A DNA stretch of 64,000 nt from Streptomyces sp. TN58 (GTDB lineage Bacteria > Actinomycetota > Actinomycetes > Streptomycetales > Streptomycetaceae): positions 5,276,001 to 5,340,000 of the forward strand of contig NZ_CP018870.1 in NCBI RefSeq assembly GCF_001941845.1, given 5' to 3'. Shown here one piece after another: positions 18,547 through 21,979 of this stretch (within the stretch, counting starts at the first letter, position 1; every line of letters starts with the position of its first letter). Under the pieces are notes generated by a model. That model was not told where the DNA came from and searched no databases. It saw only the letters and a list, made by a program, of their open reading frames with translations. The position numbers and the translations under genes are program-made.

Positions 18547-19242
18547 ATGAACGACAGCAGTCCCGAGCCGCGGGACCCGTGGGCGCCGCCGGAGCGGCCC
18601 GTGGTGGACCTGGGCAAGACGCAGGGCGCGCACGGGACACCGGGCACGCATGCGGCGCACGGCCCGCCGGCGGGGTCGGGCCCGCCGTCCGTGCACGACC
18701 AGCCGACGCTCGCCGGCCTACCGGTCGACGGGACGGCCCCCGCCGTGCCCGGCCCCGGCACGGCGGCCTACGGCTACCCGGCGGCCCAGCCCGGCTACGG
18801 CTACCCCGGCGACGCCGGCTACCCCGCCCCCGGCCATCCCGGGTACCCGGGCCATCCCGCGCAGCACGGGTACCCCGCCCAGCCCGGGTACCCGTTCCCC
18901 GGCGCGTACCCGCCGTACGGGCGCCGGCCCAGCAACGGCTTCGGCATCACCTCGCTCGTCCTCGGCATCCTCGCGGTCGTGGGCTGCGTCACCAGCTTCA
19001 TAGCCGTGGCACTCGGCATCGGGGCCGTCGTCTTCGGCGCCCTCGGCAAGGGCAAGGCCAACCGCGGCGAGGCCGACAACGGCGGGGTGGCCCTGGCGGG
19101 CATCATCCTGGGCGGGATCGGCATCGCGCTGGGCCTCCTGATGCTGCTCGCCATCTTCGCGCCGTTCCTCGACCGCGGCCGGGACGACGGCCCGCGCTAC
19201 GAGAGCCCGTATTCGGACTCACGGCTTCACGAACGGGTCTGA
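18547..19242 (+). CDS. DUF4190-type membrane protein with Gly-Tyr-Pro-rich N-terminus
   Basis: A 231-residue protein. Residues 1-130 are disordered and rich in Pro, Gly and Tyr with repeated GYP motifs. Residues about 135-205 form two to three membrane helices of DUF4190 type (GFGITSLVLGILAVVGC and GVALAGIILGGIGIAL) around a GKGKANRGEADNGG loop. The C-terminus is charged. The ATG at 18547 follows AGAGGGGGG; a TAGCAT -10-like hexamer is at 18515-18520. Function is unknown; such proteins are common near the actinobacterial cell envelope. Its end overlaps the end of the convergent Ro gene by 16 bases. Confidence 0.8.
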   Translation: MNDSSPEPRDPWAPPERPVVDLGKTQGAHGTPGTHAAHGPPAGSGPPSVHDQPTLAGLPVDGTAPAVPGPGTAAYGYPAAQPGYGYPGDAGYPAPGHPGYPGHPAQHGYPAQPGYPFPGAYPPYGRRPSNGFGITSLVLGILAVVGCVTSFIAVALGIGAVVFGALGKGKANRGEADNGGVALAGIILGGIGIALGLLMLLAIFAPFLDRGRDDGPRYESPYSDSRLHERV

Positions 19243-20825
19243 AGCCACGGCCAGTCGGCGTTCCGGCCGCCCTCGATGAGCGAGACCATCCGGAAGGCCG
19301 CGTCGGTGAGCCCGCCGAAGGTGTGCCGGTTCCCGCTGCCCGAGGGCGCGTGCCCCACCCGGTAGCCGGCCAGGTTCCAGGTGTAGACGGGCACCTCGGA
19401 CGGCACGTGCTGCGTCGGGTCCCCGCCGTAGCCGTAGGAAGCCGCCTGCTCGTCCGTCACGATCAGCACCCGGTCGTGGTTCCGGTAGTGCCTCTTGACC
19501 GCCTCGGCCGTGTTGGTGCCGCCGAGGTCGCCGAACCGTTCGAGCACCTTCAGCACGGACTCCCCCCGCTTGTGGGGGACTTCCGCGCTGGACGTGCCGA
19601 ACTGCACGAGGTCCGCGCGCTCGGCCCGCAGCGCCACCGCCGCTCCGAACACGGCGGCGGCGTCGGCCCGGTTGAGCCGGGAGCGGTCCGACAGCGGGGA
19701 CCACATCGACCCCGAGCGGTCGACGAGGACCAGCGTGCGGCCGGGCAGCGCTGGTACGTTGGCCAGCGAGTGCCCCAGGGCCTGCTCCAGCGGGTACGCC
19801 CAGCGCAGCGAGGGCGCGTGCTGGTAGGCGGCCAGGTAGCGGAAGGGGAACTGCCGGGACCGGGCCACGGCCTCCGGGTCGGAGATCTTCGCGGCGACCT
19901 GCGCGGCCACCGCGTCCGATACCCCGGCCTCGTCGAAGTTGCGCAGGTTGCGCAGCAGCGCCATCGCCCCCATGGACGGGATGACCGCCTCCCAGGCGGC
20001 CGCGTCCAGCGGCCCCTGCTGCCAGCCGGCCAGCGCTTCCCACGTCATGCCCGCCGCCGCCAGCCGTTCGGCGCCGTCGGCGGCGAGGACCACCCCGCGC
20101 CGCTCGGAGACCGGCAGCTCCATCAGCGCCCGGTGGGCGGCGAGGGTGCGGGCGCCCGCCGGGACCTGCGCGGTCTGCGGGTTGTGCCGGCGGTCCAGGG
20201 CGTAGCGGAACAGCTCGCCCTGCCAGGGCTTGTCCGGGTCGGGGGAGGCGTGCACGAGGTTGAGGACGTCACCGAAGCGGTAGGCCTTGGAGTCGGTGTC
20301 GTACTTGAGCAGCGAGGTGCCGGAGTACAGCCGGCGCACGGCGTCGGCGATCCCGCGCTTGACGGGCTTGGGCACGTTCCGCCCGTACGTGGCCGTCCAG
20401 TAGGCCAGCAGCTCGCCGGGCTCGTCCGCACGCCGCAGTACGGAGTCCACGACGCGGCGGTTCGACGGCCCGTCGGTGGCGCCCGCGTCCAGCCTGGCCT
20501 TCACGTACTCGGCGGCGCCGACGAGAGAGGCGGTGCGCATGTTCGCGTCACCGCGCAGCCAGCCCAACAGGCCCGCCGTCCAGGCGGGATCCTCGACGGC
20601 GAGGGTGCCCACGAGCGCGGCGAACCGGTCGTCGCGCGCCTCGCCGCTCTCGTACGCGGTGCGCTGGGTGACGAAGTTGGCGACGGCGAGCAGGAAGAGC
20701 TCGGAGCGCGGATCGCGCAGGTGGCCGGGGCCGCCCTCGGCGGTGCGGGCGCGCCCGGCGGAGCGGACGGGCGAACTGGGCGAGGCGGGCGCCGACTTGA
20801 GCGCGCGCAGGTTGAACCGAGCCAT
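19227..20825 (-). CDS. rsr: Ro60/Rsr-family RNA-binding protein (TROVE and vWA domains)
   Basis: A 532-residue orthologue of the Ro60 autoantigen. Residues about 40-350 form the TROVE ring of helical repeats (the ELFLLAVANFVTQRT and WLRGDANMRTAS regions are typical). Residues 360-532 form a von Willebrand A domain with an intact MIDAS: DRSGS at 369-373, the GGTNT threonine near 438 and the TDE aspartate near 458. Ro rings bind the stems of Y RNAs on their outer face and single-stranded ends of misfolded RNAs in the hole, and in bacteria they work with nucleases in rRNA and tRNA turnover. The ATG at 20825 follows GGGGGGA, which can be hidden in a hairpin. Three Y RNA genes lie directly upstream on the same strand. 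Confidence 0.93.
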   Translation of the reverse strand: MARFNLRALKSAPASPSSPVRSAGRARTAEGGPGHLRDPRSELFLLAVANFVTQRTAYESGEARDDRFAALVGTLAVEDPAWTAGLLGWLRGDANMRTASLVGAAEYVKARLDAGATDGPSNRRVVDSVLRRADEPGELLAYWTATYGRNVPKPVKRGIADAVRRLYSGTSLLKYDTDSKAYRFGDVLNLVHASPDPDKPWQGELFRYALDRRHNPQTAQVPAGARTLAAHRALMELPVSERRGVVLAADGAERLAAAGMTWEALAGWQQGPLDAAAWEAVIPSMGAMALLRNLRNFDEAGVSDAVAAQVAAKISDPEAVARSRQFPFRYLAAYQHAPSLRWAYPLEQALGHSLANVPALPGRTLVLVDRSGSMWSPLSDRSRLNRADAAAVFGAAVALRAERADLVQFGTSSAEVPHKRGESVLKVLERFGDLGGTNTAEAVKRHYRNHDRVLIVTDEQAASYGYGGDPTQHVPSEVPVYTWNLAGYRVGHAPSGSGNRHTFGGLTDAAFRMVSLIEGGRNADWPWLQTRS

Positions 20826-20830
20826 GAGAA

Positions 20831-20858
20831 TCCCCCCGAATTCGATGGAAGCGGGGGA
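20831..20858 (-). promoter_or_regulatory. Hairpin masking the ribosome binding site of rsr
   Basis: On the minus strand, TCCCCC at 20858-20853 can pair with GGGGGA at 20836-20831, which is the ribosome binding site five bases before the rsr ATG. The loop is 16 bases. A competing C-run ends the last Y RNA at 20869-20873, so folding of that RNA could influence whether the site is open. Visible base pairing; regulation is inferred. Confidence 0.45.
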
Positions 20859-20864
20859 GGCGTT

Positions 20865-21017
20865 GCGCGGGGGATGCCCGAGATCGGAAGTCGGCGGCGG
20901 ACTTGAATCAGCTGCTCTAAGCTTCTGAGCTAGCGGCCTGAGCCGGGCGGGACTTGAACCCGCGACCTGCTGATGGACAGAAGTAACCGCCACCTGCGCA
21001 CCGGGCATCCCCCACGC
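20865..21017 (-). ncRNA. Y RNA with circularly permuted tRNA-like domain (YrlA type), third of array
   Basis: Minus-strand RNA of about 153 nt. The ends pair over 12 perfect bp (21002-21013 with 20869-20880), extendable to 16 bp. Next come the conserved GTGCGCA (20995-21001) opposite CTTCCGATCT (20881-20890), then an inner 8-bp stem (20987-20994 with 20893-20900). Inside lies a tRNA mimic in permuted order: anticodon-stem 3' strand (20969-20974), T-arm with loop TTCAAGT (20947-20963), a short acceptor-like hairpin with TCAG loop (20934-20945), D-arm (20914-20930), anticodon-stem 5' strand (20907-20912). The Ro-binding stem replaces the anticodon loop. This is the architecture of bacterial YrlA RNAs. 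Ends are predicted from pairing only. Confidence 0.85.
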
Positions 21018-21019
21018 GG

Positions 21020-21092
21020 CCTCCCGAGATCAAGGTGGCGGCGGCCTGGGTTTCTTTACGGAAGAAGGAGCCGCAGCCTGCGCACCGGGAGG
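21020..21092 (-). ncRNA. Minimal Y RNA without tRNA-like domain, second of array
   Basis: Minus-strand RNA of about 73 nt. The outer stem CCTCCCG/CGGGAGG pairs 21086-21092 with 21020-21026. The conserved GTGCGCA (21079-21085) faces CCTTGATCT (21027-21035), close to the ACUUGAC strand of the Ro-binding site in animal Y RNAs. An inner stem of 8 positions with one mismatch pairs 21071-21078 with 21037-21044. The cap is a small TTCTT/AAGAA hairpin (21062-21066 with 21052-21056) where the other two RNAs carry the tRNA mimic. Only a few bases separate it from the third RNA, so the array is probably made as one transcript and cut. Confidence 0.75.
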
Positions 21093-21106
21093 TGCGTGAC
21101 GTAGGT

Positions 21107-21240
21107 GTCCAGAGAACAAGGCCGGCGAAACCACATGGTGCTCTGCCAACTGAGCTACACCGGCCCGAAGCCGGTGACGGGACTCGAACCCGCGACCGCC
21201 CGATTATGAGTCGAAGTAGGTCTCGCCTTCGCACCTGGAC
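21107..21240 (-). ncRNA. Y RNA with circularly permuted tRNA-like domain (YrlA type), first of array
   Basis: Minus-strand RNA of about 134 nt. The ends pair GTCCAG/CTGGAC (21235-21240 with 21107-21112). GTGCGAA (21228-21234) faces CCTTGTTCT (21113-21121). The inner stem is 9 bp with one G-U pair (21219-21227 with 21124-21132). The tRNA mimic is permuted: a Met-like CTCATAA segment near 21204-21210, T-arm with canonical loop TTCGAGT (21177-21193), acceptor-like 7-bp hairpin CACCGGC/GCCGGTG (21158-21176), D-arm GCTC/GAGC (21140-21155). It shares GTGCG and TACTTC (21213-21218) with the third RNA. Tools that look for tRNAs may report broken tRNA-Met pieces here; the half-order is reversed, so it cannot be a normal tRNA. 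Confidence 0.85.
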
Positions 21241-21247
21241 GAGGAAC

Positions 21248-21253
21248 ACGTTA
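21248..21253 (-). promoter_or_regulatory. Predicted -10 box of the Y RNA array
   Basis: TAACGT on the minus strand ends seven bases before the first paired base of the first Y RNA (21240), exactly where a start of transcription at the RNA 5' end would need it. A weak -35 (TGGCGG) lies 18 bp upstream. It falls between the NADAR stop (21283) and the array. Confidence 0.45.
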
Positions 21254-21282
21254 GGCGGGGGCCTTCCGGCTCCGCCAGCCAA

Positions 21283-21870
21283 TTACGCCGCGCCCGGATC
21301 CCCGCCGCCCGAGCCGTCCGCAGCGCCTTCGCGCAGCCGCGTCCGGGCCTCCATCAGCGCGAAGCCCAGCAGGTTCAGCCCGCGCCAGCGCGCCGGATCC
21401 AGGGCGCGCTCGTCGTCGGCGGCCAGTCCGATGCCCCAGATCCGGTCCATCGGGCTCGCCTCCACCAGCACCCGGTCCCCGGTGCCCAGCAGGTAGGCGC
21501 GCAGCGCCGGGTCGGAGCCGAACTTGTGCACGCTGCCCTCCACGACGAGGGCGAACCGCTCCCGCTCCCACGTCGCGTTGTCGAAGCCGCGCACCAGCCG
21601 TCCGACCTTCTTCGCCTCGGCCGGGCTGCTCGCCGCAACCGCGGCGCGCTCGGCCTCGGAGTCCCCGAACAGCCGGGCCTTGCCGGCCATCATCCAGTGC
21701 TCGGCCGTCGCATAGCGGACGTCACCGACGGTGAACGAGGACGGCCACCACTGGCTCAGGCAGCTCGGACCGAGCTTGCCGTCGGGCCGCGGCCGGTGCC
21801 CCCAGAACGGCAGGTACTTCAGTCGCTCACCACGGCTGACCTGCTTGATCAGGTCGTCGATCATCTCCAT
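21283..21870 (-). CDS. NADAR-family protein (YbiA-like)
   Basis: A 195-residue protein with the NADAR pattern: the LSQWWPSSFTVGDVRYATAEH core near residues 40-60 with EHWMMAGKARLF after it, then a late DRIWGIGL. Family members act on NAD- or ADP-ribose-linked N-glycosides; some remove ADP-ribose from guanine, others clear intermediates of riboflavin synthesis. The ATG at 21870 (MEMIDDLIKQ) is preferred to upstream frame extensions, though no good ribosome binding site is seen. It lies just upstream of the Y RNA and Ro genes on the same strand, so read-through into the array is possible. Confidence 0.85.
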   Translation of the reverse strand: MEMIDDLIKQVSRGERLKYLPFWGHRPRPDGKLGPSCLSQWWPSSFTVGDVRYATAEHWMMAGKARLFGDSEAERAAVAASSPAEAKKVGRLVRGFDNATWERERFALVVEGSVHKFGSDPALRAYLLGTGDRVLVEASPMDRIWGIGLAADDERALDPARWRGLNLLGFALMEARTRLREGAADGSGGGDPGAA

Positions 21871-21979
21871 GCACGCGAGTGTGGCACCCGCCACTGACAC
21901 TTCGTACGGGTTTTCCGGCGCGCCTCGACACATGGTCGACCGATTCCGTCGCGTAATCAAAAGGAAACAACGGAATCAC

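Follow-up and report, generated by a model that had tools for sequence, protein, structure and literature searches.

Tandem Y RNA-like units with a shared putative Ro-binding handle ahead of rsr in Streptomyces sp. TN58

Several features of bacterial Y RNAs are already known: a Y RNA encoded beside rsr, the gene of the Ro60-like protein Rsr, a Y RNA tether to PNPase, a module modified by tRNA enzymes, and a yrlB-yrlA pair. In Salmonella, yrlB and yrlA lie side by side in the rsr operon (rsr-yrlBA-rtcBA) (PMC7790460, PMC9879122, PMC8394870). YrlA carries dihydrouridine and pseudouridine made by tRNA enzymes (PMC8394870), and it has been proposed as a possible anticodon nuclease inhibitor (among PMC7790460, PMC8394870, PMC4726728, PMC9879122 and PMC8058203). 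In the RYPER of Deinococcus radiodurans, a Y RNA tethers Rsr to PNPase and gates Rsr (PMC4726728, PMC8058203). For mycobacteria, a YrlA candidate (PMC9569102) and a full-length TROVE protein (PMC8628891) have been described. Here we report an rsr gene of Streptomyces sp. TN58 that is preceded by three tandem Y RNA-like units, located in a stretch of 64,000 nucleotides (contig NZ_CP018870.1, positions 5,276,001 to 5,340,000; hereafter the window). We consider it probable that the locus forms one transcription unit, composed of a promoter, three Y RNAs with a common handle and then rsr, in which the head of the last Y RNA has been refitted repeatedly.

The rsr gene and its three Y units

In the window, three co-directional units precede rsr (Table 1), separated by spacers of 14 nt (units 1-2) and 2 nt (units 2-3), and the array ends 39 nt upstream of the rsr ATG. 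A sequence-only reading had predicted three minus-strand RNAs at this place, and their coordinates, lengths, spacers and end pairing were borne out. The same reading had named a complete TROVE-vWA gene. The open frame and the TROVE assignment hold, the latter with 53.6 bits against a Pfam cut-off of 23, but the match spans profile positions 289-351 only, and VWA_2 stays just under its cut-off (24.1 against 27 bits). The DRSGSM sequence of Rsr is presumably the DxSxS-type motif of a vWA domain, and a phmmer search with Rsr retrieved the PDB chains 9l5y and 9kop ('TROVE domain-containing protein') at E 7.8e-28.

Table 1. Features of the rsr locus, in coordinates of the window
Feature	Position	Strand	Remarks
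rsr (Ro60-like, 532 aa, TROVE and vWA-like part)	19227..20825	minus	open frame, ATG at 20825
Y unit 3 (153 nt with extended end stem; putative Ro-binding stem and tRNA-like module)	20865..21017	minus	Rfam YrlA 46.0 bits at 20888-20993 (E 4.9e-8 in 7 kb, 1.3e-8 genome-wide); model R3, model core 20872-21008
Y unit 2 (73 nt, stem-only, without tRNA-like module)	21020..21092	minus	model R1; fold z -2.35
Alternative hairpin CGCACC-TCCC-GGTGCG (predicted)	21081..21096	minus	pairs at probability 0.83-0.87 when 20860-21245 is folded
Y unit 1 (134 nt; putative Ro-binding stem and elongator-type tRNA-like module)	21107..21240	minus	Rfam YrlA 38.3 bits at 21110-21231 (E 8.2e-6 in 7 kb, 2.1e-6 genome-wide); model R2
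Putative -10 box TAACGT	21248..21253	minus	7 nt ahead of unit 1
Putative -35 box TGGCGG	21272..21277	minus	18 nt spacer; T.GC invariant in 18 aligned loci; tentative assignment

All three units share a handle that consists of an end stem, a GGUGCG strand opposite a GAUCUC-type strand and an inner helix, usually UACUUC; conserved facing strands had been predicted and are present in the DNA as GGTGCG and GATCTC-type. These strands are similar to GGUCCGA/CUUGACU of metazoan Y RNAs, whose upper parts are, to our knowledge, not tRNA-like. Units 1 and 3 combine what defines YrlA, namely an end stem with the conserved Ro-binding strands and a permuted tRNA-like module in the order T arm, acceptor-like hairpin and D arm. 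Unit 2 has the same strands and inner helix, which makes it a Y RNA in the wide sense, and it carries a small hairpin in place of the tRNA-like module; we therefore class it as a stem-only Y-like RNA and not as YrlA.

In an Rfam scan of 7 kb (cmscan, E up to 1), YrlA was the sole family matched. A YrlA covariance search on the minus strand, suggested beforehand, thus recovered units 1 and 3, both under the gathering score, and unit 2 had no match to any Rfam family in that scan. Two results weigh against the assignment at this level: both matches fall below the YrlA (RF02553) gathering score of 69, hence our term YrlA-like, and unit 1 folds only weakly better than its shuffles (z -1.79; 6 of 200 shuffles as good), next to an exceptional unit 3 (z -4.56) and a modest unit 2. 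Our own covariance models (R1 for stem-only units, R2 for unit 1 and R3 for unit 3; 28 seeds each, run over rsr loci) gave 142.7 bits for unit 1 (R2), 83.6 for unit 2 (R1) and 125.1 for unit 3 (R3) in the window, scores that are not independent because the window units are among the seeds of each model. The genome of the window holds three further YrlA matches. One (L003) was rejected as a Y RNA, being a tRNA-Asn pair. The other two (L005/L006, C1:588366-588616, minus strand) are tandem matches of 30.6 and 30.0 bits that resemble permuted tRNA modules and have no clear Ro handle; a tmRNA was rejected there, as ARAGORN lists neither a tRNA nor a tmRNA. Since these matches include a tRNA pair and tRNA-like stretches, a YrlA score alone is no proof, and conservation beside rsr is, by comparison of the loci, the stronger evidence for Y RNAs. 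Annotation based on the threshold would miss units 1 and 3, which score under it, and the array exposes Y RNAs of this kind.

Matches to rsr were found in 91 of 150 genus genomes, several of them fragmentary, and in 72 of 121, 118 of 197 and 30 of 246 genomes of the family, order and class samples, which overlap with one another and with the genus sample. The duplicates L128, L131, L134, L135 and L138 were removed before the architecture, tree, stem, arm, box, hairpin and head-class counts. Among the 135 remaining family loci, 120 carried at least two Y units, and their architectures (T, tRNA-like; S, stem-only) were T1-S-T in 63, S-T in 30, S alone in 14, T1-S in 5, T1-s-T in 5 and others in 18. 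At 80 named actinomycete rsr loci, at least one unit was found in 79 and at least two in 69, with no unit in 1 locus, one in 10, two in 30, three in 22, four in 14 and five in 3; these are counts among the matches listed (150 of 195 and 150 of 154 model matches), in which weak units may be missing. The five-unit loci, again among the matches listed, belong to two Planomonospora and one Nocardia (L314). The Nocardia case is loose, because its units lie 1625 nt from rsr with gaps of up to 153 nt, and L272 and L331, among a few others with wide gaps, are likewise loose. Named and remaining loci were not de-duplicated against each other; the Rsr of L255 is identical to the query from L223. One link identifies the genus sample as Streptomyces: its L092 locus is 96.4% identical over 1701 nt to a Streptomyces sp. 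SAJ15 locus (L287). The tandem arrangement of Y units is widespread in actinomycete rsr loci.

Decay of the end stems in related genomes had been named beforehand as the outcome that would speak against the array. The stems were kept: 72 distinct end stems were 92.3% paired, against 66.6% with reshuffled 3' arms (maximum 71.0% in 1000), and 97.2% of cells were paired over 344 units, counts that carry a favourable bias, as the units came from models that reward pairing. From the second count, 24 of the 368 model matches, which lacked the motif, had been left out. Within an array the 5' arms were all different in 208 of 214 arrays, and a 5' arm paired with its own 3' arm at six or more of seven positions in 97.6% of cases versus 14.2% with a foreign arm of the same array. 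In the window, duplexes of own arms were predicted at -9.5, -14.2 and -28.6 kcal/mol, compared with -3.3 to -7.7 for foreign arms. RNAalifold on alignments of 28 sequences detected double changes in 11 of 38 pairs of unit 1 and 13 of 29 pairs of unit 3. Unit 2 is the weak point here: it barely varies in Streptomyces (double changes in 2 of 20 pairs, covariation term -0.31), and two U-G cells are the only departures from an invariant end stem in this alignment. A comparison across paralogues and genera does show variation in the end stem. Judged from these alignments and arm exchanges, the end stems covary. The first proposal, in which three Y RNAs of mixed type are packed closely together beside a Ro gene, thus has the support of the Rfam matches, of the covarying end stems and of conservation at most related rsr loci.

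The presence of Y units largely follows that of rsr. Of the 150 genus genomes, 82 contained the Y pattern, and in those without rsr the Y motif was not found at its usual spacing of 8. Six rsr-less genomes (G045, G046, G048, G088, G122 and G138) had one match each at a spacing of 6, 7, 9 or 10, a number that fits a reversed control pattern (12 matches in all 150 genomes). Since some true units are likewise spaced at 9 or 10, spacing alone does not set two of the six apart from them. Two genomes with a short rsr fragment only (G057, G082) had one off-spacing match each. Extra Y-like units away from rsr were found in ten genus genomes (L236-L245). In the annotated case (L241; unit at G013:C1:1758259-1758359, minus strand), they lie between metK and priA. 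By eye, the flanks of L237-L240 and L242-L245 resemble those of L241, and L238, L240, L242 and L244 each carry an additional tRNA-like unit whose D arm is Ser/Tyr-like; L236 is located elsewhere. A pattern for the metK-priA type matched 7 of 150 genomes, all with rsr, and such a second locus was not found in the window's genome with two exact patterns and model R1, which do not exclude variants. Further Y matches unlinked to rsr occur in G007, G049, G052 and G131.

Some loci are damaged, with a broken rsr and surviving Y units (L246, L247). In G125, rsr is broken and units 2 and 3 look intact. In G066, most of rsr is lost through a deletion that fuses its end to a truncated unit 3 (as in L247), yet unit 2 is still there, a case that does not favour our reading.

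tRNA-like heads and their apparent exchange

The head of unit 1 was nearest to a permuted tRNA-His (score 38), followed by tRNA-Gly (35), with a shuffled maximum of 21. That of unit 3 was most like a permuted tRNA-Lys(CTT) (score 40; next isotype 32; shuffled maximum 17), which it resembles through the D arm and anticodon stem. Scored against 52 distinct tRNA sequences from the window's genome, the D regions of all 345 tRNA-like units, duplicates included, reached a mean of 15.8 versus 8.1 for shuffles (shuffle maximum 13). Unit 1 was elongator-type in 82 of 82 loci. The 111 classed heads of unit 3 comprised 70 of the elongator type, 27 of the Leu type, 7 of the initiator/Asp type and 7 that were variant or other. 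Rarer classes among 341 heads were Gln (7), Glu (8), Glu-like (10) and other (31). Coarse head types differ in 74 of the 121 arrays with at least two tRNA-like units, a soft number because 'other' counts as a type and the classes rest on self-written patterns. A variable region of at least 18 nt accompanied 23 of 27 Leu-type heads versus 1 of 70 elongator-type heads (L142, a parsing artefact, as are the unit 3 variable lengths of L011 and L137). Two points should be held against the typing: the types were assigned by D-arm patterns that we wrote ourselves, and 4 of the 27 Leu-type heads come without the long variable region.

Related bacteria appear, from these comparisons, to have swapped the tRNA type of the last-unit head several times. 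The nearest relative of the window (L008), with an Rsr 95% identical, has an initiator/Asp-type unit 3 head in the place of the Lys-like one. On a tree of 66 Rsr proteins, which covers 66 of the 111 classed unit 3 loci (those whose full-length rsr was available, minus three with truncated flanks), the unit 3 head type needs at least 18 changes; the Leu-type needs 8, of which 2 are forced by well-supported branches, and the initiator/Asp-type 5, of which 4 are forced. The head-type labels are clustered on this tree, with as low a number in 0 of 200 shuffles. Counted by eye, two Leu-type heads (L026, L037) match tRNA-Leu(CAG) from the window's genome exactly over 21 nt of the D arm, and the initiator-type head of L158 has a 23-nt stretch in common with tRNA-fMet.

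The swaps may be neutral. tRNA gene conversion would then overwrite the module, any tRNA body would serve the partner (PNPase, modification enzymes), and the type would be without function. Several head types work in the same position, the window and L008 differ in spite of their closely similar Rsr, and the exact 21-nt and 23-nt stretches are as such conversion would leave them. Unit 1 has nevertheless kept its type in every classed locus while unit 3 changes, so that the two positions are not equally free, and Leu-type D arms come mostly with a long variable region, though one conversion could bring both. We hold neutral swapping to be a serious possibility that falls somewhat short of an even chance.

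A broader interpretation is more tentative, and we regard it as rather doubtful: the arrays might be modular panels of tRNA mimics. A fixed handle, often repeated two to five times, would carry heads captured repeatedly from different tRNA genes (elongator, Leu with a long variable arm, initiator/Asp, Gln and Glu, and Ser/Tyr-like near metK and priA), and head-less copies would be masked until cut. With such a panel, Rsr might offer or hold back several tRNA bodies simultaneously, which could act, for instance, as decoys of or tethers to tRNA-processing, -damaging or -repairing enzymes, and the panel would turn over under an arms race.

Reduced heads were also observed. Four- or five-unit arrays that mix reduced (about 111-116 nt) and full units occur at L139, L222, L223, L255 and L256. 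Beside the divergent rsr genes of L092-L094, the first unit measures 111-113 nt and keeps the T loop and hairpin; it seems to lack the D arm and would thus be a reduced tRNA-like head.

The putative transcription unit and its middle RNA

A TANNGT box, which includes the putative -10 box, lies 7 nt before GTCCAG in 17 of 18 aligned loci and 9 nt before GCCCAG in the eighteenth (L036). In the family, 121 of 135 first units have it at a distance of 2-24 nt upstream, compared with 3 of 199 inner units; in the full set of loci it precedes 163 of 251 first and 4 of 373 inner units. Loci without unit 1 (e.g. L022, L023) carry the box ahead of unit 2. Consensus scans of 20600-21500 found neither a terminator-like site nor a sigma-70 consensus promoter. 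A box ahead of first units but rarely ahead of inner units fits one precursor, and one promoter ahead of the array, reading on toward rsr, would be the simplest reading. The single precursor that had been proposed from the sequence is thus supported indirectly, by the distribution of the box and by the scan for terminator-like sites.

We propose that this promoter drives a single precursor with three Y RNAs followed by rsr, which nucleases would cut in the short spacers, and that Rsr would bind the handles of the released RNAs; expression, processing and Rsr binding are all predictions from sequence. The two tRNA-headed RNAs may serve Rsr as tethers or gates towards a partner able to recognise a tRNA body, or the partner may be a ring exonuclease such as PNPase, as in the Deinococcus RYPER. 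The stem-only RNA would yield an Rsr particle without a head, possibly a gate or a filler that sets the amount of free Rsr. During evolution, the handle would have stayed constant while one tRNA body after another was fitted to the last unit as its head.

The predicted fold of the whole precursor (20860-21245) supports this proposal in part. The end stems of units 1 and 3 form with a probability of 0.93-1.0. Pointing the other way, the end stem of unit 2 reaches only 0.12-0.13, its 3' arm is partly paired to bases that precede unit 1, and the alternative hairpin occupies its first bases plus the Ro strand; the TANNGT box, moreover, is absent from 14 of the 135 first units. Trimmed to 73 nt or with short flanks, unit 2 takes the Y fold. 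Within the family, 110 of 130 stem-only units and 0 of 192 tRNA-like units have the five-pair form of the hairpin, GCACC-TCCC-GGTGC, which requires the three bases preceding unit 2; beyond the family the figures are 56 of 133 and 8 of 121. Because the A of GCA has no partner when unit 2 adopts the Y fold, the fact that it is conserved speaks for the hairpin rather than for a simple lengthening of the end stem. Together, the modelled folds and the conserved hairpin suggest, as a prediction, a middle unit that stays masked in the precursor until a cut at its 5' end turns it into a Y RNA. In the uncut precursor its Ro strand would be hidden in the hairpin, and the Y fold would perhaps form only after trimming.

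The same hairpin could serve control in cis, in that the folded array or the alternative hairpin would regulate translation or stability of the rsr mRNA and the released RNAs would be by-products. The array and rsr are close and co-directional, and the hairpin, confined within the family to stem-only units, dominates the predicted precursor fold. A leader, however, would need neither tRNA-like heads nor unit-specific covarying end stems, and Y units also occur unlinked to rsr; we find this explanation unlikely.

Unit 2 might instead be a decaying remnant, with only the tRNA-headed units of importance. It leaves its own stem unclosed in the predicted precursor fold, has shrunk to 31-32 nt in five loci (L039, L043, L046, L129 and L159), where only the end stem, GGTGCG and GATCTC are left, and was not detected at a few others (L028, L162). 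Its end stem and Ro strands are nevertheless nearly invariant in the 28 aligned sequences. Of the five shrunken copies, four retain them, and L046 differs by one additional base. Ten other rsr genes (L075-L081, L084-L086), 65-74% identical to that of the window, have a single stem-only unit upstream (R1, E 0.0019 to 6e-7), and no tRNA-like unit was found with R2 and R3 in the approximately 1.5 kb searched alongside. Six of these ten genomes also hold a main-type rsr copy. Three (G038, G041 and G143) seem to hold only an rsr of this kind, with one model match each and no other convincing Y motif. A remnant is therefore, in our judgement, a poor account of unit 2.

That the units are degenerate tRNA genes or tRNA remnants is highly improbable: their T arm, D arm and acceptor-like pairing are tRNA-like and the YrlA model also matches a tRNA pair, but ARAGORN found no tRNA gene in the window, the tRNA parts are permuted and enclosed by the Y stem, and the array accompanies rsr.

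A gene of the NADAR family (Pfam, 170.8 bits; window 21283-21960) ends 42 nt ahead of unit 1. It was rejected as a functional partner, as it is near only 13 of 259 loci, all close to the window.

Comparison with described Y RNA systems

The function of bacterial Y RNAs and the reason for their imitation of tRNA are the questions on which these loci bear. They offer a natural series, with a constant handle, a head that changes between close relatives and head-less forms of about 70-78 nt or, in five loci, 31-32 nt, in which the Ro-binding and tRNA-like parts come apart, so that the reason for tRNA imitation becomes testable by head swaps. The abstract of a 2014 study by Chen (RNA) reportedly states that every species has a tRNA-like domain on one or more of its Y RNAs, which implies that mixed sets of Y RNAs were known.

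The novelty originally claimed for a three-member array has to be narrowed. A yrlB-yrlA pair in Salmonella was already published (PMC7790460, PMC9879122), and our literature search, with the main Y RNA surveys outside it, found no Streptomyces Y RNA arrays, no conserved stem-only units and no exchange of tRNA type. In the accessible portions of the mycobacterial papers, yrlA and the TROVE protein are treated as horizontally acquired and arrays are unmentioned (PMC9569102, PMC8628891).

The Salmonella YrlA shares with units 1 and 3 the Ro-binding end stem, a tRNA-like module with D, T and acceptor-like arms, and a position adjoining rsr. Salmonella has two Y RNAs downstream of rsr, whereas the window has three upstream, and neither rtcB nor rtcA, present in the Salmonella operon, was among the six neighbouring proteins scanned. 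The window array also differs from YrlA in scoring under the Rfam gathering threshold, in having one unit without a tRNA-like module and in the varying tRNA type of its heads. The Deinococcus RYPER, in which the Y RNA acts as tether and gate on Rsr, offers by analogy a possible role for an array that is known from its sequence. A formal parallel may be found in metazoans, where several Y RNAs share a Ro60-binding lower stem and differ in their upper parts (PMC4726728), as the units of this array share a handle.

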